DNA from: Thermaerobacter sp. FW80 | GTDB lineage: Bacteria; Bacillota; Sulfobacillia; Thermaerobacterales; Thermaerobacteraceae | DNA: 64,000 nt | Assembly: GCF_004634385.1 (NCBI RefSeq) | Contig: NZ_CP037895.1 | Location: forward strand, 496,001-560,000 | Reading direction: 5' to 3' | Shown here: positions 2,835-19,347 of the stretch, piece after piece | How positions within the stretch are numbered: position 1 is the first letter of the stretch | Layout of the letters: each line of letters opens with the position of its first letter | The notes under the pieces: model-generated | Database searches by the model: none | Seen by the model: the letters and a program-made list of their open reading frames with translations, nothing else | What the model was told of the DNA's origin: nothing | Translations under genes and position numbers: made by a program

Positions 2835-4892
2835 GTGCAGTTCCTAGTGATCGCTGACAATCCCATCCGACGACCTGAGCATGATACTTTAGGTCGAGCG
2901 CCAGCAGCTCGTTCATTTGCCGAACAGATTCTGTCACTTGATGCATCAGAAGGCATCGTTGTCGGCGTGCTCGGACCTTGGGGTTCCGGTAAGACCTCAT
3001 TTATCAATCTTGCCTGTTGTTATCTCAAGGACAAAGGACTAACTGTTATTGATTTCAACCCGTGGATGTTCAGCGGAACTGAACAGTTGCTTAACCACTT
3101 CTTTAGTGAGCTGACTGCCAAACTCAAGCTTCGAAAGGAGTTATCGGAAGTTGCTAAACTTGTCGAGGAATATGCTGCAGCCTTCTCCGGCATGACCCCA
3201 TGGATCGACCTTGTAGTTAGTGTGGCAAATGTCTTAAGAAAAATATTTGGCAATGGAGAAACCGATCTTGATACTCGCCGCAAACGGGTCGAAGACGCCC
3301 TATTATCTCTGCCACAACCAATCATTGTAGTAATGGACGACATTGATCGGTTGGCAAGAAACGAAATCCGAGAAGTATTCAAATTGGTGCGACTAATAGC
3401 TCGCTTTCCTAACATCATCTACGTGTTAGCCTTCGACCGACTCATGGTTGAGAAGGCTCTCCGAGAGCCAGGAATTTCAGGTCGCGACTACCTTGAGAAG
3501 ATACTTCAACTCGTCGTAGATCTGCCGGCGGTGACCCCAGACATTTTGCAGCGACAACTACTCCAGGCCATTGATGAGGCCCTAGCGGGGATCGACGATC
3601 CCGGACCGTTTTACGCAGACGCATGGCCTGATATCTTCATGGAAGTTATTCGACCCCTCGTGCGCAATATGCGAGACGTCCGTCGATTTGCCACAACAAT
3701 ACGGGGCACCGTCAGGAGTCTCAATGAACAAATTGCACTCACTGATGTTCTAGCGCTCGAGGCGATTCGCCTATTTCTTCCCGACGTCTTTGCTCAACTA
3801 CCTTTCGCAGTAGACGCACTTACCACAGTGTCGGACTCCATAAGTAGAAGCGACGATCACCTTAAGGCCGCGATCGATACCCTTATCAACGCAAACGAGA
3901 CCCACTCAGAGGTAGTCAAATCCATGATACGACGGCTGTTTCCCGCGGCACGACGGCACATCGAGAACAACGTCTATGGCCCAGAGTGGATAAACATATG
4001 GCTCCGAAAGCGGCGCGTCGCACACAAAGATATCCTGAGACTTTATCTTGAGCGCGTTGCCGGAGAGGGGTTACAGGCCTTTACTGATGCAGAACGAGCG
4101 TTCTCAGTAATGGCGGATAGAAAGCTCTTCGAGACGTACTTGCGGTCTCTTGACCCGCAACGCTTGGAGGATGTGATCGCGTCGCTAGAGGTGTTTGAAG
4201 ATAGGTTTTCTAAAGAACATGTAGTTCCTGGGACAATTGTTCTTCTCAACCTACGTCCCGAACTCCCGGAGCGTCCGCGAGGCCTCTTCGATCTGGACCC
4301 TCGCCTCGTCGTGGGCCGCGTGGTCTACCGGCTCCTGCGGTCGTTGAACGATCCCGTTGCTGTAGAAAACGCCGTAAGGGCCATTTGGCCGGAACTCACT
4401 TCTCTTTCTGCCAAACTACAGTTGATTGACATTGTGGGTTATCGTGAACACGTGGGACATAAACTTGTATCGGAGACAGCAGCAGCCGAATTCGAAAGGA
4501 CCTGGCGGTCCGAGGTTCGTGCCGCACCCGTTACTGAGCTCAAGCACGAGGCCGATCTTTTGCGGGTACTTCTGGTTGCAAAACGATATGCAGAACCTGA
4601 TGAACCTGCCCCTGAAATTCCCGACATGCCGGAACTTACCCTAGCCATTTTGCGCGCCGCACGAACCGAAGTACGTAGCGTAATAATAGGCAGCCGAGCT
4701 ATTCGACGATCGCCACGACTTTATTGGGATTCCTTGGTTGAAGTCTTCGGCGACGAGGAATGTCTCAGGCAACGAGTAAACCGGCTTAAAGCATCGTTGC
4801 CTGAAGAATCGTTGTCTGACGAAGATAAGGAACTACTCCGTTTGGTAGACAAGTACCTCGAGGGGTGGAGGCCACCTGAATTTGATGAATAG
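2835..4892 (+). CDS. KAP-family P-loop NTPase
   Basis: A 685-aa STAND-type NTPase of the KAP family. Walker A is GPWGSGKTS (residues 47-55), followed by VIDFNPWMFSG, the family's FNAWW-like segment. Walker B is IIVVMDDIDRL (163-173), and NIIYVLAFDR (193-202) is also typical. KAP proteins include PifA, which makes F-plasmid cells exclude phage T7, and others linked to membranes and defence. I see no clear membrane helix between Walker A and B, so this looks like the soluble, PifA-like form. The C-terminal ~350 residues are helical and unassigned. The start is a GTG with only a weak ribosome site. Base composition (near 50% GC, many A/T third positions) differs sharply from the neighbours and points to horizontal transfer. 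A 25-codon remnant of a related C-terminus lies at 7601. A role in phage defence is inference. Confidence 0.8.
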   Translation: MQFLVIADNPIRRPEHDTLGRAPAARSFAEQILSLDASEGIVVGVLGPWGSGKTSFINLACCYLKDKGLTVIDFNPWMFSGTEQLLNHFFSELTAKLKLRKELSEVAKLVEEYAAAFSGMTPWIDLVVSVANVLRKIFGNGETDLDTRRKRVEDALLSLPQPIIVVMDDIDRLARNEIREVFKLVRLIARFPNIIYVLAFDRLMVEKALREPGISGRDYLEKILQLVVDLPAVTPDILQRQLLQAIDEALAGIDDPGPFYADAWPDIFMEVIRPLVRNMRDVRRFATTIRGTVRSLNEQIALTDVLALEAIRLFLPDVFAQLPFAVDALTTVSDSISRSDDHLKAAIDTLINANETHSEVVKSMIRRLFPAARRHIENNVYGPEWINIWLRKRRVAHKDILRLYLERVAGEGLQAFTDAERAFSVMADRKLFETYLRSLDPQRLEDVIASLEVFEDRFSKEHVVPGTIVLLNLRPELPERPRGLFDLDPRLVVGRVVYRLLRSLNDPVAVENAVRAIWPELTSLSAKLQLIDIVGYREHVGHKLVSETAAAEFERTWRSEVRAAPVTELKHEADLLRVLLVAKRYAEPDEPAPEIPDMPELTLAILRAARTEVRSVIIGSRAIRRSPRLYWDSLVEVFGDEECLRQRVNRLKASLPEESLSDEDKELLRLVDKYLEGWRPPEFDE

Positions 4893-5110: not shown

Positions 5111-5164
5111 TTGACATATCAAGGTTTCTTGATCTAATAATAGAGCCATCAACATATATTGATG
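5111..5164 (+). promoter_or_regulatory. Promoter with two tandem ArsR-type operators
   Basis: TTGACA at 5111-5116 and TAATAA at 5135-5140 form a promoter with an 18-base spacer. Filling the spacer is the perfect palindrome ATCAAGGTTTCTTGAT (5118-5133). A second palindrome, ATCAACATATATTGAT (5148-5163), lies just after the likely transcription start. Both fit ATCAA-N6-TTGAT, the classic half-sites of ArsR-family arsenic repressors. The placement predicts that the ArsR at 5575 binds here and blocks its own operon until metal or metalloid releases it. Confidence 0.75.
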
Positions 5165-5440
5165 GGACTGGGGGCCATGTTGGAACCCCAGGGGATGGCG
5201 GCAGTAATGGACGCTGAGTCGGAGGCCACCTTCGGCTGGGGTCAGTCCCGGATGCCGGACCACCTGCGAGGAATGACAGATGGCTCTCGGGCTCGTGAGC
5301 CCCTGCGTACTCGCTGGTCATGGTCCGGGGTCCTCAGGAGTTTGTCTGCAATGCTCTCCGCCGTGGCGGCCTTCCCTCCCACCAAACCGGAGTGGAGGTC
5401 ACAGGCTACGGAGTCGGCCGCGGACTCGGGCGCGATGGCG

Positions 5441-5545
5441 ATGACCCGGGTGCAGGCTGACCGTGGGCGCAGGTGCGGGGAGCAACCCGGAAGCTTTGGT
5501 CCCGTGGCGCCGCAGACAAACGCCTGCTGCAACGCCTGCTGTTAA
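5441..5545 (+). CDS. Putative small cysteine-rich peptide upstream of arsR
   Basis: A 34-residue reading frame ending in QPGSFGPVAPQTNACCNACC. It is the 3' part of a longer open frame that reaches back to 5159, but only this end looks conserved: it parallels the tail of the next gene (QPGGFGAAAPATTGCC...). Two CC pairs could bind a soft metal or arsenite. The stop is 29 bases before the arsR start and downstream of the ArsR-type operators, so the two should be co-transcribed. The start codon is uncertain, because ATGs at 5160, 5175 and 5441 are all possible and none has a strong ribosome site. No known family is recognised. Confidence 0.4.
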   Translation: MTRVQADRGRRCGEQPGSFGPVAPQTNACCNACC

Positions 5546-5574
5546 CGGTGGCCTACTGATGGGAGGCGGCAGTT

Positions 5575-6186
5575 GTGCTGGAACTAACGAGACCGAGAAC
5601 CGTAGATGCCGCGGAACCGGACGAAGCGCGCTGGCTGGCCGGCATGGGGCGTGCCCTGTCCGATCCCGCCCGGATCCGTATCCTGTTGCTCCTGGCTGAG
5701 GGCCGGGCGTGCTGCGAGGGGTTGGAACAGAGAACTCCGGCGGGACCCGACGATGGGCTTTGTGTCTGCGAACTCGAGTCCCTCCTCGGCCTCCGTCAGT
5801 CCCTCGTTTCATACCACCTCCGTCTGCTCAAGCAAGCCGGCTTGGTCCGCGAGACCCGGCGCGGCCGCTGGTCCTATTACGCCCTGGACCGCACGGTCCT
5901 CAAGGAGCTGGCCGACAAGCTGTCCGCATTAGCTTCAGCCCGTCCTCCCGAACCGGCGGACCGCTCGCGGGACGCGGGGGTCGGGGCGGACCTGGACGGA
6001 AAGGGGGTGACAAAGATGAAGGACACGCGTGATCCACGCGAGCGCCGGCACCAGCAGCCAGGCGGCTTCGGCGCCGCGGCGCCGGCGACCACCGGCTGCT
6101 GCGGCGAGGAGTCGTGCTGCGGCGATACGCCTGAGCAGGCTACGGCTTGTTGCGAAGAGCCGGCGTGCTGCGACGACTGCTGCTAA
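5575..6186 (+). CDS. arsR: ArsR/SmtB-family repressor with cysteine-rich C-terminal tail
   Basis: A 203-aa protein, about twice the usual ArsR length. Residues ~20-115 are the winged helix: ALSDPARIRILLLLAEG, then LCVCELE with the CxC metal-sensing pair, then the recognition helix segment SLVSYHLRLLKQAGLV. The remaining ~85 residues form a linker followed by a tail rich in CC pairs (TTGCCGEESCCGDTP and ACCEEPACCDDCC). GTG start with GGGAGG 8 bases upstream. An internal ATG at 6016, preceded by AAGGGGGTGA, lies in frame, so the last 56 residues may also be made as a separate peptide. It should repress its own promoter via the tandem ATCAA-N6-TTGAT sites upstream. No arsenite pump or arsenate reductase is nearby. 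Whether the tail senses or sequesters metal is unknown. Confidence 0.85.
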   Translation: MLELTRPRTVDAAEPDEARWLAGMGRALSDPARIRILLLLAEGRACCEGLEQRTPAGPDDGLCVCELESLLGLRQSLVSYHLRLLKQAGLVRETRRGRWSYYALDRTVLKELADKLSALASARPPEPADRSRDAGVGADLDGKGVTKMKDTRDPRERRHQQPGGFGAAAPATTGCCGEESCCGDTPEQATACCEEPACCDDCC

Positions 6187-6256: not shown

Positions 6257-7489
6257 ATGCAGAAGGCGATCCCAGAGCCGTTGCGGCAGGCACTGGCGGC
6301 CCTCGACGCGGAGGCCATGCTGGCCACTGTCCGCGCTCTCTGCCGCCCGGAACTTGGCGGGCGGGCTACGGGCTCGCCGGGACAGGCGCGGGCCCGGCGC
6401 TGGCTGATGGCCAGCCTCCGCCGGCTAGGCCTGCGCCCAGAGTTACACCGCTTCCAGGTGAGAACCCGCCAGAGCCTGGGCACGGCGACTGTCGTGTGGA
6501 CCCTCTTGAAAGGGCCAGCTAGGTCACTGCGACGCTGGGTCGACTTCACCGAGCACCCGCGCTCCGCTCCGGTTCCCGCGCCTGCCCGTGGCCCGCTCAA
6601 GGTCTGGGATGGTCGTACTGTCCCACGTGATGCATGGGTTCTGCTGTCGGGCGGAGAGGTGCGGCGCGGTGAGCTGCTCGCCACCCTTGCCGCCGAGGGT
6701 GCCCTCGGGGTTGTGGTGCCTCGCCGCGCCGGTCCCGATGGATGGCTCGCTAAGCATGTTTCCACGGGCCCAGTTCTCCCGTTGCCGGTTCTTACAGTAC
6801 GTGCCGACCTGGCACAGCACTTAACCGGCGGGATGCTGGAGGTCGCCCTCCCGGGGAGCACGGAGCAAGTTGTTCGTGGGGCCAACATCCTCGCCCGGTT
6901 CCCTGGTGCCATCGGGGAGGCACTCGTCCTGATCGGTGCCCACTACGACGGCGTCGGGGATGACACGGACGGGACCCGCTTCCCGGGGGCGTCCGACAAT
7001 GCCACCGGCGTGGCAGTGGTTTTAGAGGTTGCGCGGATCCTGGCCCGGGTCGGCCGTCCCGACGGCCTTCAACTGGCCTTTGTCTTCTTTGATGCGGAGG
7101 AACTGGGCGCCCGGGGCAGCCGGAGTCTTGCCCGTATGCTGGCTCGGTCGGCCCCGGTACGGCCGGGATGTCTGGTCCAGGTGATCAACGTAGACACCGT
7201 GGCCCGCCTCCGCGACGCGGTCTGGGTGGAAGGCGGTCCAGGTGCAGACCCCCTCCTGGCTGCCCTGGACCGGGCCGGGCGGGCGCTGGACATTCCCCTG
7301 CAGCTCGGTCCTGTGGCCTCCGACAACCGTGCCTTTGCAGCGGCGGGCTTTCCCGCCGTGGGTATTGCCACGGGCGGCGACCGGAGCCATCTTCCTTCCG
7401 ACGTTCCCGGCGTGGTCGAACCCGAGGCGTTGTTAACCGCGGCGCGACTCCTCCTGGGCGCTCTGTGGATGCTTACGGACCAGACTTGA
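6257..7489 (+). CDS. M28-family zinc aminopeptidase with PA-like insert
   Basis: A 410-aa metallopeptidase of the M28 (aminopeptidase Y/S) family. The five zinc ligands can be placed: His in LIGAHYDG, Asp in FPGASDNATG, the general base and ligand Glu-Glu in FFDAEELGARG, Asp in VINVDTVAR, and His in GGDRSHLPSD. Between ~110 and 215 the sequence resembles a protease-associated (PA) domain (VLLSGGEVRRGELLATLAAEGALGVVV). There is no signal peptide, so it is probably cytoplasmic. The ATG at 6257 was chosen for the GTGGGGTGA ribosome site; an upstream extension would overlap arsR. It follows arsR by 70 bases and may be read with it, but a link to metal resistance is not obvious. Confidence 0.85.
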   Translation: MQKAIPEPLRQALAALDAEAMLATVRALCRPELGGRATGSPGQARARRWLMASLRRLGLRPELHRFQVRTRQSLGTATVVWTLLKGPARSLRRWVDFTEHPRSAPVPAPARGPLKVWDGRTVPRDAWVLLSGGEVRRGELLATLAAEGALGVVVPRRAGPDGWLAKHVSTGPVLPLPVLTVRADLAQHLTGGMLEVALPGSTEQVVRGANILARFPGAIGEALVLIGAHYDGVGDDTDGTRFPGASDNATGVAVVLEVARILARVGRPDGLQLAFVFFDAEELGARGSRSLARMLARSAPVRPGCLVQVINVDTVARLRDAVWVEGGPGADPLLAALDRAGRALDIPLQLGPVASDNRAFAAAGFPAVGIATGGDRSHLPSDVPGVVEPEALLTAARLLLGALWMLTDQT

Positions 7490-7986: not shown

Positions 7987-9216
7987 TTACCTCGCTGCAA
8001 CAGCCAAGGCGCTCACCGAGTCACTCCCCAACGCGTCACCGCCCTTGAGCTTCGCCATCGACGCCTGGCTAAAGTACCGCCGCTGCACCAGCCACTCGTC
8101 CTGCTGCTCCTCCAGCAGCGCACCCAGCAGGCGCAGCACCGCCGCCACGTTCGGGAAGATGCCCACCACGTCGCACCGCCGCGCCAGCTCGCGGTTCAGC
8201 CGCTCCAGGACGTTCGTCGAGTGGATCCCCCGCCAGTGCTCCGGCGGGAAGTCCATGTAGGCCAAAACCTCCTCCGCGGCCTCCCGCAGCAGGCTCGCCA
8301 CCTGGGGGAACCGCCGCTCCAAGTTTGCCGCCACCTGCTCCAGCTGCTGCCGAGCCGAGGCACGGTCCGGCTGGGCGAAGATGGTCCGTACCAGCGCTGC
8401 CACCATGGACTGGGCGTGCTTGGGCACCCGCGCCAGCAGGTTCCGCATGAAGTGCACCCGGCACCGCTGCCACGTGGCGCCTGCCAGCACCTCACCGATG
8501 GCTCGCTTGAGGCCCTCGTGGGCGTCCGAGATCACCAGCCGCACGCCCTTCAGCCCCCGGGCCACCAGGCGACGTAGGAAGTCCAGCCAGAACTCGTACG
8601 TCTCGGCCGCGCCCACGTCGAACCCCAGGACCTCCCGTTCCCCTGTCTCCCGCACACCCACGGCGATCACGGCCGCCATGTTCACCACCCGTCCGTCTTG
8701 CCGCACCTTCACCGCCTTGGCGTCCAGCCACACGTAGGGGTACTCGCCTTCCAGCGGCCGGTTCCGAAAGCGCTCCATGTGCTCGTCCAGCTCGGCGCAG
8801 ATGCGGGAGACCTCGCTCTTGCTCAAGCCCCCGACGCCCAGCGCCTGGACCAGCTCGTCCACCTTGCGCGTGCTCACCCCGTGCACGTAGGCCTCCTGCA
8901 CCACGGCCAGCAAGGCCCGCTCCGCGCGCCGCCGCGGCTTCAAGAGGCTGGGGAAGTAGCTGCCGCGGCGTAACTTCGGGATCTGCAGCTCGATGGTGCC
9001 CACGCGCGTGTCCCAGCGCCGGGGGCGGTACCCGTTTCGGTAGGTAGTGCGCGACGGGGTGCGCTCGTAGCGCTGGGCGCCGATGAGTTCGCTGACCTCG
9101 ACCTCCATCAGCTGCTGGGCGAGCCAGCGCAGGCCCTCCCGCAGGGCGTCGACCTCGGGCTCGCCCTGGTACTGGCGCAGCAGTTCGAGAAGTGCCATCC
9201 TGAAGTCAGCGGTCAC
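7987..9216 (-). CDS. IS256-family transposase
   Basis: An intact 409-aa mutator-type transposase. The three catalytic residues are visible: Asp in YVWLDAKAVKVR (about 165), Asp in LVISDAHEGLK (about 231) and Glu in STNVLERLNRE (about 337). The CxxH segment is WQRCRVHFMRNLLARVP. The N-terminal part includes LMEVEVSELIGAQRYER, typical of this family. The ATG lies next to a 68-bp inverted repeat (9211-9278) that may limit read-in transcription. It runs against the surrounding IS110 gene. Confidence 0.95.
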   Translation of the reverse strand: MTADFRMALLELLRQYQGEPEVDALREGLRWLAQQLMEVEVSELIGAQRYERTPSRTTYRNGYRPRRWDTRVGTIELQIPKLRRGSYFPSLLKPRRRAERALLAVVQEAYVHGVSTRKVDELVQALGVGGLSKSEVSRICAELDEHMERFRNRPLEGEYPYVWLDAKAVKVRQDGRVVNMAAVIAVGVRETGEREVLGFDVGAAETYEFWLDFLRRLVARGLKGVRLVISDAHEGLKRAIGEVLAGATWQRCRVHFMRNLLARVPKHAQSMVAALVRTIFAQPDRASARQQLEQVAANLERRFPQVASLLREAAEEVLAYMDFPPEHWRGIHSTNVLERLNRELARRCDVVGIFPNVAAVLRLLGALLEEQQDEWLVQRRYFSQASMAKLKGGDALGSDSVSALAVAAR

Positions 9217-9278: not shown

Positions 9279-10332
9279 GCTGCTGTCAACGGCCACCAGC
9301 CACGCCTAAACCCTGGCCGGAAAGTCCACCACTACCCGGGACTTTAACCTGGGGCCCAAGGAGCGGCTCTTGGTCTGCTACGAGGCAGGGCCCACCGGAT
9401 ACGGGCTCCAGCGCTTGCTGGCCTCCCTGGGGATCGAGTGCATCGTGGTGGCCCCGGCGCTGACGCCCACGCGCCCCGGGGACCGGGTCAAGACCGACCG
9501 CCGGGATGCTGTGCGTCTGGCGGAGCTGCTGCGGGCCGGCGAACTGGCTCCGGTGTGGGTGCCCGGCGAGGAGGACGAGGCGCTGCGCGACCTGGTGCGG
9601 GCGCGGGAGGATGCCAAGCAGGACCTTTTGCGTGCACGCCACCGGCTGAGCAAGTTCTTGCTCCGGCACGGGATCCGGCCGCCGCAGGGGGTGCGCCGGT
9701 GGTCGGGCCGGTATCGGGAGTGGCTGGAGGGGCTGGAGCTGGGGCAACCGGTCCTGCAGCGGGTGTTGCGGGAGTACGTCCACGCCATCGATGAGATCGA
9801 GGAGCGCCTTAAGCGCCTGGAAGCGGAGATCCACGAGCAGGCCACGGCCAGCGTGCACGCGCCGGTGATTCAGGCTCTGCAGGCGTTGCGCGGGGTGGGC
9901 GAGGTGGTGGCGGTGACGGCGGTGGCCGAGGTCGGGTCGTTCTTACGCTTTGCCCGGGCGCGGCAGTTGATGGCGTACGCGGGGATCGTGCCCAGCGAGT
10001 ATTCCAGCGGGGCACGCCGCAGGCGCGGTGCGATCACCAAGACGGGCAACGCGCACCTGCGCCGGGTGCTGGTGGAGGCGGCGTGGTCCTACCGCCACCC
10101 GCCGGCGCTCAAGGCGAAGATTCGGCAGCGCTACGAGGGGCAACCGCCAGAGGTGCAGCGGATGGCGTGGAAGGCGCAGGAGCGCCTGTGCCGCCGCTAC
10201 CGGCGCATGATCGCGCGGGGCAAGCCGCACGCCGTCGCGGTGACCGCCGTCGCTCGCGAATTGCTGGGCTTCATGTGGGCGATTGCTTGTTGGGTAGAGA
10301 GGCAGCAGCAGGACGACCAGACCGTTGCGTGA

Positions 10333-10777: not shown

Positions 10778-12082
10778 GCAATCACTCAGCCAAAATGTAA
10801 CCGAAGGGGGTCCCGGATCACTCACGGAGAAATCTTACCGAAGGGACGTGCTGTGCCAATGTCGCTCGCCAGCCGCCGGGAGTATCTCGCCACCATGCGA
10901 GAACGGTATTGGGCGGCCCGAACCCGCCGGGAACGAACCGAGATCCTGAACGAAGTCCAGCAAGTCTGTGGGTATCACCGCAAGTACGCGATCCGGGTCC
11001 TCCGACAGGCCACGCCGCCGGCCCCGGCCAAGCGCCGTCGCAAGCGGGCCCTGCGCTACCTCGAGGCCTTGCCGGTCATCGCACGGATCTGGGAAGCACT
11101 GGACTACCCTTGCGCCGAACGGCTTCACCCGGTGCTCTTGCCCATGGCCGAGCACCTGGCCGCCCACGGGGAAGTCGTCCTCACAGACGCCGTGCGCGAG
11201 GCCCTCCAGAAGATCAGCCGCGCCACCCTGGCCCGCCGCCTCGCTGCGATGCCCTCGCCCAAGCCGCGCCGTCGGCTTCCTCGTCCGCGACCGGGGCTTC
11301 TGCAAAGCCAGATCCCCATGGCCACCTACGACTGGGACGAAGCCCGGCCCGGGGCCTTGGAGGTCGATCTGGTCGAACATAACGGCGGCTCGACCGCCGG
11401 CCAGTACGCGTACACCCTCAGCATGGTCGACATCGTGACGGGCTGGAGCCGCCGCCGCGCCTTGCTCGGCCGAAGCCAGCGCGCCGTCCACGAAGCCATC
11501 CAGGACCTGATCGCCCAATGGCCCTATCCCGTCTGGGGCCTGCACACCGACAACGGTGCCGAGTTCGTCAACCATCACCTGCAGCGGTACGCCAAGGTAC
11601 ACCACCTGACGTTCACCCGCAGCCGCCCCTATCGCAAGAACGACAACGCCCACGTCGAGCAGCGCAACCGCCAGCTGGTCCGGGAGATCGTCGGCTATGC
11701 CCGCTACGACCGCCCCGAGCAGGTCGAACAGCTCAACCGGCTCTACGCCCGCTTGGACCTCTACGCCAACCTGTTCCTCCCAACCCGGAAACTCAAGAAC
11801 AAGGTCCGGGACGGCGCCCGGGTGCGCAAATCCTACGACGCCGCCCGGCCCCCGCTGGATCGCATCCTCGAGCGCGACGTGCTCTCGCCCGAGGAACGGG
11901 CGCGCTGGCTGGCCCTTCGCCAGTCTCTCAACCCCCTAAAGCTCCATCGGGAGCTGGACGACCTGATCGCTGGCCTCCAGCAACCCCCGGAAACGGCCAT
12001 GTCCGCCGATTGAGGTGTTCGGTAACATCCTTACGTGAGTGATCAGGACCCGTTGGGTAACATTTTTAGCTGAGTTGTCGGC
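10778..12082 (+). mobile_element. rve-type insertion sequence, copy 1
   Basis: The ends form an imperfect inverted repeat: TCAGCCAAAATGTAACC on the left and, inwards from the right, TCAGCTAAAAATGTTACCC, followed on both sides by GATCACT. The exact outer base is uncertain because the two copies in the window diverge just outside TTTTTAGCTGA on the right. Confidence 0.75.
10853..12013 (+). CDS. Integrase-core (rve) DDE transposase
   Basis: 386 aa with a GTG start. Residues ~1-55 form a helix-turn-helix region (SLASRREYLATMRERYWAAR, then GYHRKYAIRVLRQ). The rve catalytic core spans ~155-320, with Asp in LEVDLVEHNGG, Asp in GLHTDNGAEFVNHH and Glu in KNDNAHVEQRNRQ. The protein is identical to the one at 16867-18027. 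I place it near the IS481/ISNCY type of rve transposase without firm family assignment. Confidence 0.9.
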   Translation: MPMSLASRREYLATMRERYWAARTRRERTEILNEVQQVCGYHRKYAIRVLRQATPPAPAKRRRKRALRYLEALPVIARIWEALDYPCAERLHPVLLPMAEHLAAHGEVVLTDAVREALQKISRATLARRLAAMPSPKPRRRLPRPRPGLLQSQIPMATYDWDEARPGALEVDLVEHNGGSTAGQYAYTLSMVDIVTGWSRRRALLGRSQRAVHEAIQDLIAQWPYPVWGLHTDNGAEFVNHHLQRYAKVHHLTFTRSRPYRKNDNAHVEQRNRQLVREIVGYARYDRPEQVEQLNRLYARLDLYANLFLPTRKLKNKVRDGARVRKSYDAARPPLDRILERDVLSPEERARWLALRQSLNPLKLHRELDDLIAGLQQPPETAMSAD

Positions 12083-14002: not shown

Positions 14003-16309
14003 CTACCCCGCGCGGAGAACGCGGGTGGCGTTGAGGATGGCCAGCAGGGAGACGCCGACGTCGGCGAAGACCGCCTCCCACATGGAGGCCACGCCGGCGG
14101 CCCCCAGGAGGACGAAGATCAACTTGACCCCGAGGGCGAAGGCGATGTTCTGCTTCACGATGCGCCGCGTGGCCCGGGCCACGGACACGGCCGTCGCCAG
14201 CCTGGCCGGGCTGTCGTCCATGATGACCACGTCGGCCGCCTCGATGGCCGCGTCGGAGCCGAGGCCGCCCATGGCCACGCCGATGTCCGCCCGGGTCAGC
14301 ACCGGCGCGTCGTTGATGCCGTCCCCGACGAAGGCGAGGGCGCCGATTCGTCCCTCGCGGCGCCGCTCGGCGTCCAGCCGCTCCACGGCCTCCACCTTGT
14401 CCTCGGGCAGCAGGTTGGCGCGCACCTCGTCCAGGCCCAGGGCCGCGGCCACCTTCTCGGCGACGGACCGGTCGTCCCCCGTCAGCATGACCTGGCGCCG
14501 GACACCCAGTTCCCGCAGGGCGCGCACGGCCGCCGCCGCCTCGGGCTTGATTTCGTCGGCGATGACGATGCGTCCCGCCAGCACGCCGTCCACCGCCACG
14601 TAGACCACCGTGCCCTCGGCCTCGCAGGTCTCGTGGGGGATGTCCTCACGGTGCAAGAGCCGGTCGTTGCCGGCAACGACCAGTTGCCCGTCCACGCGGG
14701 CACGCACGCCGTGGCCCGCGACCTCTTCGTAGCCCGCCACGCGCGACCGCTCTACGGCCCGGCCGTAGGCCTCGGCGATGGAGGCGGCGATGGGGTGGCT
14801 GGAAAAGGCCTCGGCGTGGGCGGCCAGCTCCAGGACCCGGTCGCGGGAGAACCCGTTGAAGGGCGTGACCTCCACCACCTTGAAGACGCCCCGCGTCAGC
14901 GTGCCCGTCTTGTCCCAGACCACGGTGTCCAGGCGCGTCAGGGCGTCCAGGTAGTTGGAGCCCTTGACCAGCACGCCCCGCCGCGAGGCGCCGCCCAGGC
15001 CGCCGAAGTAACCCAGCGGGATCGAGATCACCAGCGCGCACGGACACGAGATCACCAGCAGGACCAGCGCCCGCCGGAGCCAGTCGCCGAACGCCGCCCC
15101 GGGCACCACCAGCGGGGGGATCACCGCGACGGCCAGGGCCGCCGCCACGACCGCCGGCGTGTAATAGCGCGAGAAGGTGGTGATGAACCGCTCCGTGGGC
15201 GCCTTGCGGGCGGCCGCCGTCTCCACCAGCCGAAGGATCTTGGCCACCGACGACTCGCCGAAGGGCCGGCTGACCCGCACGGTGAGCAGGCCCCGGGTGT
15301 TGACCATGCCCGCCATCACTTCGTCGCCGGGTTCCACCCGCCGGGGTACCGATTCTCCCGTGAGGGCGGAGGTGTCCGCGAAGGACGAGCCCTCCACCAC
15401 TTCCCCGTCCAGGGGGATGCGCTCGCCGGGCCGGACCACGATTTCCTCGCCCACGGCCACCGCCTCGGGCGGGACGCGCAAGATCTCGCCGTTCCGCCGC
15501 ACGTGGGCGTAGTCGGGCCGGAGGTCCATCAGGGCCCGGATGGAGCGCCGGGAGCGCTGCACGGCCAGGTCCTGGAAGAACTCGCCGACGGTGTAGAACA
15601 GCATGACCGCCACCGCCTCGGGCAGCTCGTGGATGGCGATGGCGCCCGCGGTGGCCAGGGTCATCAGGAAGTTCTCGTCGAAGAACTGCCCGCGCCGCGC
15701 GTTGCGCAGGGCGGCCCCGATCACGCCGTGGCCGACCCACACGTAAACGGCCAGCAAGGCGGCGTCCACCGCCAGGGCGAGGGACGTGCCCTCCAGCCGG
15801 GGGTGGAGGAAGGTCGCCGCCAGGAATGCCAGGGTGGCCAGGCCGATGGCCGCCAGGCGGCGGTAGGTGGAGTGACGTTCCTCCTCTTCAGCCGGCCGCT
15901 CCGCCTGGCCCGTCGCGCCCGTCCTTTCCTTGGCGGAAGAACCAGGCGCCACCGCCTCCCCGGTGGCCCTTGCCACGGCTTCCCCCGCGGGATGGGCCGC
16001 CGCGCCCGGCGCCGGGTGCGGCCCGTGGGGAAGAACGCTCTCCTGAAGAGTCCCGTTCCGGGCGGCAGCCCCGGTATCCTGACGCGGCGGGACGAGCCGG
16101 ACCCCCGGTTCGACGCGGGCGATGATCTCCCGGGCGCGCTCGACCCGCTCCGGGGGCAGGAGGACGGACCCCGTGGCGAAGCTCACGGTGGCTTCTTCCA
16201 GGCCCGGCTCGCGGCGCAGGGCATCCTCGATCCGCTGCGCGCAGCTGGCGCAGTCCATGCCCTCCAGGACATAGCTTTGCATGCGTTCTCGCCGTGTGTC
16301 CGTGCTCAC
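14003..16309 (-). CDS. cadA: Heavy-metal P1B-type ATPase (CadA/ZntA-like)
   Basis: About 768 aa; pumps Cd2+/Zn2+/Pb2+ out across the membrane at the cost of ATP. Signatures in order: an N-terminal HMA domain with GMDCASC; paired hydrophobic helices; the phosphatase loop with SALTGES; the transmembrane metal site SCPCALVIS (about residue 420); the phosphorylation site DKTGTLT; the ATP-binding HP pair in AFSSHPIAASI; MLTGDDRSVAEKVA; and GDGINDAPVLT near the end. A low-complexity linker of ~60 residues follows the HMA domain. A GTG at 16309 has GGAGGG seven bases upstream; a GTG at 16327 is the alternative. cadC lies 33 bases upstream on the same strand, so the two form one operon. Confidence 0.93.
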   Translation of the reverse strand: MSTDTRRERMQSYVLEGMDCASCAQRIEDALRREPGLEEATVSFATGSVLLPPERVERAREIIARVEPGVRLVPPRQDTGAAARNGTLQESVLPHGPHPAPGAAAHPAGEAVARATGEAVAPGSSAKERTGATGQAERPAEEEERHSTYRRLAAIGLATLAFLAATFLHPRLEGTSLALAVDAALLAVYVWVGHGVIGAALRNARRGQFFDENFLMTLATAGAIAIHELPEAVAVMLFYTVGEFFQDLAVQRSRRSIRALMDLRPDYAHVRRNGEILRVPPEAVAVGEEIVVRPGERIPLDGEVVEGSSFADTSALTGESVPRRVEPGDEVMAGMVNTRGLLTVRVSRPFGESSVAKILRLVETAAARKAPTERFITTFSRYYTPAVVAAALAVAVIPPLVVPGAAFGDWLRRALVLLVISCPCALVISIPLGYFGGLGGASRRGVLVKGSNYLDALTRLDTVVWDKTGTLTRGVFKVVEVTPFNGFSRDRVLELAAHAEAFSSHPIAASIAEAYGRAVERSRVAGYEEVAGHGVRARVDGQLVVAGNDRLLHREDIPHETCEAEGTVVYVAVDGVLAGRIVIADEIKPEAAAAVRALRELGVRRQVMLTGDDRSVAEKVAAALGLDEVRANLLPEDKVEAVERLDAERRREGRIGALAFVGDGINDAPVLTRADIGVAMGGLGSDAAIEAADVVIMDDSPARLATAVSVARATRRIVKQNIAFALGVKLIFVLLGAAGVASMWEAVFADVGVSLLAILNATRVLRAG

Positions 16310-16342
16310 CCGCAATCCCTCCAGCACGCTCAGTAGCGCGGG

Positions 16343-16729
16343 TCAGCGTTCTTCTTCGTAATGCTCCTGGGCCACCTGGATAAGCCGCAAGACGTGCTCG
16401 TCGGCCAGGGAATAGTAGACGTTCTTGCCCTCCCGCCGGTACTTCACCAGGCGCATGGTCTTCAGCAAGCGCAGGTGATGGGAGACGGCGGGCAGGCTGA
16501 GGTCGAGGATGGCCGCCAGGTCACAGACGCAGAGTTCCTCGTCCGCCAGCAGGTAGAGGATCTTGGTCCGCGTCTCGTCGGCCAGGGCCCGGAACAACTC
16601 GGACAGACCCGCCACTTCCACGAGTCGCTCGCGCAGGGCAGTGACGCGCTCGCCGTTGGGGTCGAAGCTCGAGCACACGTCATTGCGGGCTCCTTCCCGC
16701 GCTGTGGTCACCGGGTGGTTCCCCCTCAT
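16343..16729 (-). CDS. cadC: CadC/SmtB-type metal-responsive repressor
   Basis: A 128-aa ArsR/SmtB-family winged-helix protein. The segment LFRALADETRTKILYLLADEELCVCDLAAIL matches CadC, including the ELCVCD metal site. An N-terminal Cys in NDVCSSF corresponds to one of the two N-terminal ligands of CadC; the second is absent. The recognition helix is LPAVSHHLRLLK. It should repress the cadC-cadA operon and let go on binding Cd, Pb or Zn. The ATG at 16729 lies inside the candidate operator and has no good ribosome site. A GTG at 16711, with GAGGGGG upstream, is a serious alternative that would give 122 aa. Confidence 0.9.
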   Translation of the reverse strand: MRGNHPVTTAREGARNDVCSSFDPNGERVTALRERLVEVAGLSELFRALADETRTKILYLLADEELCVCDLAAILDLSLPAVSHHLRLLKTMRLVKYRREGKNVYYSLADEHVLRLIQVAQEHYEEER

Positions 16730-18096: not shown

Positions 18097-19347
18097 GCTG
18101 GCCCGCAGCTGGCCGCGCAGGCCCGGGAGGGTACGGAGGTCGAGGACCTGACCCATGCCCTCGTCCGCCTGGGCGCCCGCAAGCTCATCCAGGAGCTGCT
18201 GGAGGCAGAGGTCACGGAGCTTTAGGGGCGCGGACGCTACGAGCGGCGCGAGCCTGGCCAGGAAGGCGCCCGCAACGGCTACAAGCCGCGGACGCTGCGT
18301 TGCGCCGAGGGGCGCCTCGAGATCGACGTCCCCCAGGTGCGGGGCATGGTGGGACTGTGCCAGCCCACGCTGTGGAGGGCCCTCAAGCGGCGGACGGACG
18401 TGCTGGAGCGCCTGGTGGTGGAGATGTACGCCCGGGGACTTTCGACTCGGGACATCGAGGATGCGCTGGCGGAGCTGGCGGGCAGCGAGGCGCCGCTTTT
18501 GACCCGGTCCACCGTGAGCCGGATCACCGAGGCGCTCCACGAGGAGTTCGAGGCCTTTGCCCAGCGGGACCTGTCGGGCCTCGACGTGGTGTACCTGTTC
18601 GCCGACGCCATCGACGAGTCGCTGCGCCGGCAGGCGGGCTGCCGTGAGGGCATCCTGGTCACCTGGGCCATCTTGAGCGACGGCAGCAAGGTGCTGGTGC
18701 ACCTGAGCCTGGGCAACAAGGAGCGCTACGAGGACTGGCTGGAGCACTTCCGGGATCTGGTGCGCCGGGGGCTGAAGACGCCGCTGACGGTGACGACGGA
18801 CGGGGCGCCGGGGCTGATCCAGGCGGTGGAAGCCATGTGGCCGGAGGCGGAGCGCATCCGCTGCTGGGTGCACAAGATGCGGAACGTGCTGGACAAGGTG
18901 CCGGAGGAGGCGCGGCCCGTGCTCAAGCCCTACCTGGAGGCGATCCGGGACGCACCGGATATCGAGCAGGGCCGGCGGCTGGTGGCCGAGGTGGTGGAGC
19001 GGTTCGGGCGGGAGTATCCCTCGGCCATGCGGAGCCTGCAGGAGGACCTGGAAGCGAGCCTGGCGCACCTGCGGCTACCCGCCGCCCACCGCAAGCATGT
19101 CCGGACCACCAACCTGGTGGAGCGCAGCTTCGAGGAGGAGCGGCGGCGCGCCAAGGTGATCCCGCGGTTTCGGAGCGAGCGGGAGTGCCTGAAGCTGGTC
19201 TTCGCCGTGCTGTGGCGGGCGAGTGAGCGCTGGCGGCGGGTGCAGTTCAGCGAGCACGAACGAAAGCAGCTGGAGCGCTACATCGAGGAGCGGCAACGGC
19301 AAAGAGCGGCGCAGAAAGAGGTTTCACCCGCTGCCACCGTGGCATGA
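18097..19347 (+). pseudogene. IS256-family transposase, disrupted copy
   Basis: Lacks its first ~13 codons (left behind at 10737-10777), has a one-base deletion near 18104, and carries a TAG at 18223 where the intact copies have TTG (ELLGRG). The frame is open again from 18337 to the end and keeps all three catalytic residues (FADAIDE, TTDGAPG, NLVERSF), but without the N-terminal DNA-binding part it should not be active alone. Confidence 0.9.

Follow-up and report, generated by a model that had tools for sequence, protein, structure and literature searches.

The 64,000-nucleotide stretch of Thermaerobacter sp. FW80 DNA analyzed here (the window) contains, together, an arsR gene, an in-frame peptide of repeated CC pairs with a strong, conserved internal start, an M28 metallopeptidase gene, and a promoter with two operators (Table 1). 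The arsR product belongs to the ArsR/SmtB family, as indicated by its winged HTH domain (49 bits against the HTH_5 profile, with a cut-off of 22, and 82.5 bits against HTH_metalloreg, with a cut-off of 55), the CXC site LCVCEL at residues 62-67, and the palindromic operators in front of its own gene. The extra CC lies within an insert that precedes the CXC site. An earlier, sequence-only reading of this locus had proposed an ArsR with a CC-rich tail under tandem ArsR operators, with no known arsenic gene adjacent. All three features are borne out: the open reading frame is present and exceeds the cut-offs of both HTH profiles, the two operators are perfect matches to ATCAA-N6-TTGAT, and no arsenic gene lies beside arsR in the window. 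The M28 gene, located directly downstream of arsR, was missing from that reading.

Table 1. Features of the arsR-M28 cassette and the second arsR copy (window positions unless prefixed with C1)
Feature	Coordinates	Strand	Remarks
Promoter	5111-5140	+	-35 TTGACA (5111-5116), -10 TAATAA (5135-5140); read from sequence
ArsR-type operator 1	5118-5133	.	ATCAAGGTTTCTTGAT; between -35 and -10; perfect ATCAA-N6-TTGAT
ArsR-type operator 2	5148-5163	.	ATCAACATATATTGAT; downstream of -10; perfect ATCAA-N6-TTGAT
Truncated, decaying tandem arsR copy	5159-5545	+	Aligns to ArsR residues 65-182; ends QPGSFGPVAPQTNACCNACC
arsR	5575-6186	+	GTG start, 203 aa; CXC motif (LCVCEL), insert with extra CC, variable linker, CC-rich tail
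Internal Shine-Dalgarno (SD)	6001-6009	+	AAGGGGGTG; -16.6 kcal/mol; kept in second copy at -16.1
Internal start ATG	6016-6018	+	Behind AAGGGGGTG
56-aa CC-repeat peptide	6016-6186	+	Five CC pairs; in-frame ArsR fusion; also startable at ATG 6016
M28 metallopeptidase	6257-7489	+	410 aa; Pfam Peptidase_M28, 94.2 bits; no evident signal peptide
Second arsR copy	C1:258515-259168	minus	54% identical over full protein; one close relative in genome

The 3.04 Mb genome contains exactly four ATCAA-N6-TTGAT sites, two in front of each arsR copy, and no instance of the reversed pattern. Allowing one mismatch adds four further sites, compared to one for the reversed pattern, which is near chance. Operators resembling ATCAA-N6-TTGAT have been described for a cyanobacterial ars operon. 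A matching promoter layout is found before the second arsR copy and before a CC micropeptide gene in a genome of the same class (G018, see below). The perfect operators, all four of them, serve no genes other than arsR-CC and M28, which fits the notion that the thiol peptide itself is the output of the system. The locus is not a classical ars operon: neither an efflux pump nor an arsenate reductase gene adjoins arsR in the window, and a genome-wide search for acr3 detected none.

The M28 protein can be assigned to this peptidase family by its domain, metal ligands and catalytic Glu, with every metal-ligand and catalytic position present (H229, D231, D247, E281, E282, D313 and H378). It shares the catalytic domain and metal ligands with the M28 aminopeptidases 2ek8, YwaD and SGAP, and matches 2ek8 over almost its entire length, but it differs from these enzymes in the apparent lack of a signal peptide and in its linkage to arsR and CC peptides.

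The cassette is flanked by transposase-like genes (544-1830, 7987-9216, 9370-10332, 10853-12013 and 18337-19347), some of which are near-identical repeats, and was not found in other sampled members of the genus. Directly upstream lies a gene for a KAP-family P-loop NTPase (2835-4892, plus strand). The same transposase-rich region harbors a heavy-metal P-type ATPase gene (14003-16729, minus strand) and, ahead of it, a gene for a CadC-like ArsR (ELCVCDL); the two make up a cation-efflux pair distinct from the cassette.

The second arsR copy, 243 kb away, has kept the HTH domain, the CC tail, the internal start and both operators, with a diverged linker, and is followed by a remnant of the same M28 peptidase. 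Between the two copies, the tail is as constrained as the HTH domain, whereas the linker drifts (dN/dS of about 0.33, about 0.27 and 0.67, respectively; rough values, with dS near saturation). Predicted pairing with the 16S anti-SD sequence is stronger at the internal site of the window gene than at the start of arsR itself (-11.0 kcal/mol; 1% background, -10.8) and is the strongest among all in-frame starts of arsR. In the second copy, the equivalent ATG is again the best, surpassing that copy's own start (-14.1 kcal/mol). Thus, a start located exactly at the junction between ArsR and the tail has been retained while the linker diverged, which lends support to the earlier suggestion that the 56-residue part could be released from an internal ATG.

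Relatives of the locus were traced via the M28 gene; searches of 398 genomes of the phylum and 399 genomes of the class to which G533 belongs yielded the four Bacilli discussed below. In the closest sampled M28 relatives, those of Nonomuraea gerenzanensis (43% identical to the window M28) and four Bacilli, a separate gene encoding a CC-repeat peptide of 43-66 aa invariably adjoins. In Nonomuraea, the gene order is arsR, an unfused 63-aa peptide with four CC pairs (MTDQSSGGFLGDPHEAFAPPAAGGCCGSQAATQESGCCGSPAATQQSGCCGQEPAPTATGCCG), and M28. In G533, it is arsR, a small CC protein, an ArsP permease, M28 and a 43-aa CC peptide, with five perfect operators. M28 is followed by a CC peptide of 66 aa in G744, 63 aa in G780, where arsR adjoins with three perfect operators, and 55 aa in G891. 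Arsenic-related context is provided by arsC, above its cut-off, and an ArsO-like gene, below its cut-off, in G780, and by an ArrA-like gene, likewise below its cut-off, in G533. Between G744 and G780, dN/dS is 0.20 for the peptide and 0.15 for M28, and the former value identifies the CC peptide as a real gene. A CC peptide is encoded beside the closest M28 homologs in 4 of 4 Bacilli and in 0 of 19 generic M28 loci (Fisher p 1.1e-4), where the four Bacilli amount to about three independent cases, G744 and G780 being of one genus, and the 19 controls are heterogeneous. In the tree of ars-linked M28 peptidases, two well supported clades are seen, one uniting the window and Nonomuraea and the other consisting of the four Bacilli. 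The tree does not establish a single origin of the M28/peptide pairing, which could therefore have arisen twice.

Several of these loci have peculiarities of their own. In the Nonomuraea M28 (L102:4923-6215), Gln replaces the last His metal ligand, and in G891, the M28 frame (L141:7308-8760) looks broken, with an early stop at 287 aa and an intact CC peptide behind it. A second CC-rich small peptide of Nonomuraea (L102:2638-2811, minus strand; MELCCTPEQLATCCAPEAKPACCDAAATEDACGC) is encoded divergently from a flavin oxidoreductase, and the genes downstream of M28 (L102:6240-11125) encode a thioester reductase, a carrier protein and pyruvate-dehydrogenase-like E1/E2 proteins, possibly forming a biosynthetic cluster. 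Genes for a molybdopterin oxidoreductase resembling ArrA and a membrane protein resembling NrfD (L131:2403-5924, minus strand) adjoin the G533 locus, and a SigZ-type sigma factor with a cysteine-rich C-terminus (L141:5047-5646, minus strand; ESCCAKCKTQSSCKSSC) is encoded beside arsR in G891. Flavin oxidoreductases of ars clusters (L102:2882-4237 and L140:10734-12134) end in SCCG or NCCG, and C-terminal CC tags may be more widespread among enzymes. An ArsM-like protein (L024:702-1676, minus strand) has three CC pairs at its N-terminus (SDCCGGAQSGCCGGGCC) and thus shows this thiol design in an enzyme.

CC peptides are also encoded in the absence of M28, in G018, G066 and Arthrobacter. The G018 genome, from the window's own class, contains a transcription unit coding only for a 27-aa CC peptide (MIKLRVFSKVDGPCCGGCCGGSGGGCC), divergent from arsR and equipped with a perfect operator (ATCAACATTTGTTGAT) and an SD; its stop codon is followed by a strong hairpin. 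In G066, a 43-aa CC peptide gene is located near arsR, with a one-mismatch operator, and in Arthrobacter FW305-BF8, a 19-aa CC ORF that is absent from the annotation of the record lies between trxB and the flavin oxidoreductase gene of an ars operon. Alicyclobacillus ferrooxydans has a 49-aa CC ORF about 5 kb from an arsR. Another 49-aa CC ORF, in L091, was not counted because it resembles the beginning of a disrupted arsM gene. A filter for short ORFs (SD, 18-90 aa, at least three CC) returned 10 matches in 647 kb, with one locus represented two times, whereas reversed DNA and five dinucleotide shuffles gave no match. As the 647 kb had for the most part been selected for the presence of arsR, these counts are no estimate of enrichment relative to whole genomes.

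The exact QPG-FG-AP-CC motif, which the sequence-only reading had put forward as a pattern to be expected beside other arsR genes, fared poorly. A model of the tail yielded nothing convincing outside the Thermaerobacter sp. FW80 genome among 154 genomes of the class and no match among plasmids, and the motif was accordingly rejected as a family signature. Being short and rich in cysteine, the tail makes a weak tblastn query, and scanning genome contigs with full-ArsR patterns retrieved ordinary ArsRs only, the patterns being too specific. The viral contigs searched gave no match, and the closest plasmid ArsRs, from Rubrobacter, belong to arsM-arsR-arsH operons and have no such CC tails. The fused ArsR-CC arrangement was seen in this one genome only, among those sampled. 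What the CC peptides have in common is repeated CC pairs, often GCCG, toward the C-terminal end of a short peptide. Apart from these repeats, they have no core that can be aligned, and they may therefore not all go back to one ancestor. In profile searches, the CC-repeat peptides matched nothing in Pfam or NCBIfam, including any metallothionein family, and a literature search limited to open papers found none that describes such peptides in ars operons. If the family is delineated as short ORFs with an SD and at least three CC, located beside arsR or in an ars operon, it includes the window tail along with the peptides of Nonomuraea, G533, G744, G780, G891, G018, G066 and Arthrobacter. The previously raised possibility of an unnoticed family of small thiol peptides gains support from these free-standing CC genes beside arsR and/or M28 in Nonomuraea and several Bacilli.

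Taken together, the sequence evidence makes it fairly probable that the locus is a small, ArsR-controlled metalloid-handling unit in which a metallothionein-like thiol peptide is fused to the repressor and can also be started alone; the same degree of confidence, applied to this interpretation as a whole, extends to the proposal that the 56-aa peptide represents, in fused form at this locus, a family of CC-repeat peptides (19-66 aa) whose scattered members have their genes in ars operons or next to arsR. Under this scenario, a thiophilic ion such as As(III) or Sb(III) would bind the CXC and CC cysteines of ArsR and lift repression. Translation would then give two products, the fusion of ArsR with the CC tail and the free 56-aa peptide, the latter from the stronger internal site. 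By chelating the ion, the CC pairs would lower its free level, so that the system would both buffer the ion and switch itself off, and the M28 peptidase might trim or recycle the thiol peptide or ion-thiol adducts.

The window ArsR resembles the E. coli-type CXC sensors of the ArsR/SmtB family in the HTH domain, the CVC motif in the DNA-binding region and the autoregulated operators, to which it adds the insert with CC before CVC, the long linker, and the 56-aa CC-repeat tail with its own start. Alternatively, this tail could serve the repressor only as an extended sensor or an additional metal site and never be produced as a separate peptide, comparable to the C-terminal cysteines of AfArsR. 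Metal-binding cysteines close to the C-terminus have been described in ArsRs such as AfArsR, with its C-terminal CC..C As(III) site (model peptide NCCHGTRDCA; PMC11212059), and Bacilli ArsRs at related loci end in ELCC..NSCC. Although vicinal CC near the C-terminus is common to both proteins, AfArsR has one three-cysteine site (PMC11212059), whereas in the window ArsR, a linker and an internal start precede five CC pairs. The ten cysteines of these pairs are more than a single As(III) site requires, and the exact preservation of the internal SD and ATG at the junction in both copies, as well as the relatives with free-standing peptide genes, also make a purely sensory role of the tail unlikely.

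Less plausible still is the possibility that the CC peptide is not a buffer but a precursor or carrier from which M28 and neighboring redox enzymes would make a small thiol product, RiPP-like or phytochelatin-like. The recurrent pairing with an intact M28 peptidase, the flavin oxidoreductases in several clusters and the thioester reductase downstream in Nonomuraea are compatible with such a pathway, but there is no leader/core pattern and no recognized RiPP enzyme, several peptides occur without M28, and the sequence between the CC pairs varies freely.

The sequence-only reading had also described a matching short CC peptide upstream of arsR, which would imply that two thiol-peptide frames follow one another independently, the first encoding a peptide of its own and the second the ArsR tail. 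The QPG-FG-AP-T-CC likeness is real and far above chance (local score against ArsR of 157, compared to 32 +/- 5.6 for shuffled sequences), and the upstream frame is open over 128 codons. However, the likeness spans ArsR residues 65-155 even when both tails are removed (101 vs 30 +/- 5.1 for shuffled sequences; the other five frames score 23-37), the N-terminal half of the HTH domain is missing and the recognition helix is broken, and the mismatch rate is nearly flat over codon positions (0.40/0.40/0.49). For these reasons, the upstream frame was rejected as an independent peptide; it is a degenerate, dying tandem arsR duplicate, which explains the design common to both frames and renders the two-peptide version of the locus highly improbable. 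Equally hard to credit is a low-complexity, neutrally evolving extension without function, as the simple CC-rich composition and the transposase-rich, accessory region might suggest, against the constraint on the tail being similar to that on the HTH domain while the linker drifts, and the recurrence of CC peptides across phyla at ars loci and their absence from shuffled DNA.

The metalloid-handling interpretation places the peptide, by analogy, among small thiol-rich chelators such as bacterial metallothioneins and phytochelatins, from which it differs in being ArsR-controlled and in the arrangement of its cysteines, which form vicinal CC pairs and not CXC/CXXC or gamma-EC repeats. An arsenic effector joined to an ArsR repressor has a precedent in the ArsR-ArsM fusion (ArsRM) of Brevundimonas (PMC10190100), where the effector is a methyltransferase as opposed to the thiol peptide of the window fusion. 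A broader proposal, which we put forward only tentatively and consider possible but rather doubtful, is that ribosomally made CC-repeat thiol peptides are a widespread, unannotated bacterial counterpart of phytochelatins, switched on through ArsR, capturing As(III)-like ions and, once loaded, processed by a dedicated M28 peptidase for export or conversion. ArsP or flavin enzymes would join in some loci, and in Thermaerobacter sp. FW80 the repressor and the peptide would make up one gene with two starts.

Bacterial arsenic resistance has been described mainly in terms of efflux, reduction, methylation and oxidation. If the interpretation favored here is correct, this repertoire would gain sequestration by a dedicated peptide, a thiol chelator that is encoded by a gene, recurs among bacteria and is controlled directly by ArsR. 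At 19-66 aa, the CC peptide genes are so short that profiles and annotation miss them, as exemplified by the 19-aa Arthrobacter ORF in a gap of an annotated operon. The CC peptides would provide a clear test set for other genomes and a candidate function for an orphan subgroup of M28 peptidases, and ArsR-CC would represent a natural fusion of sensor and buffer that may be of use in biosensors.
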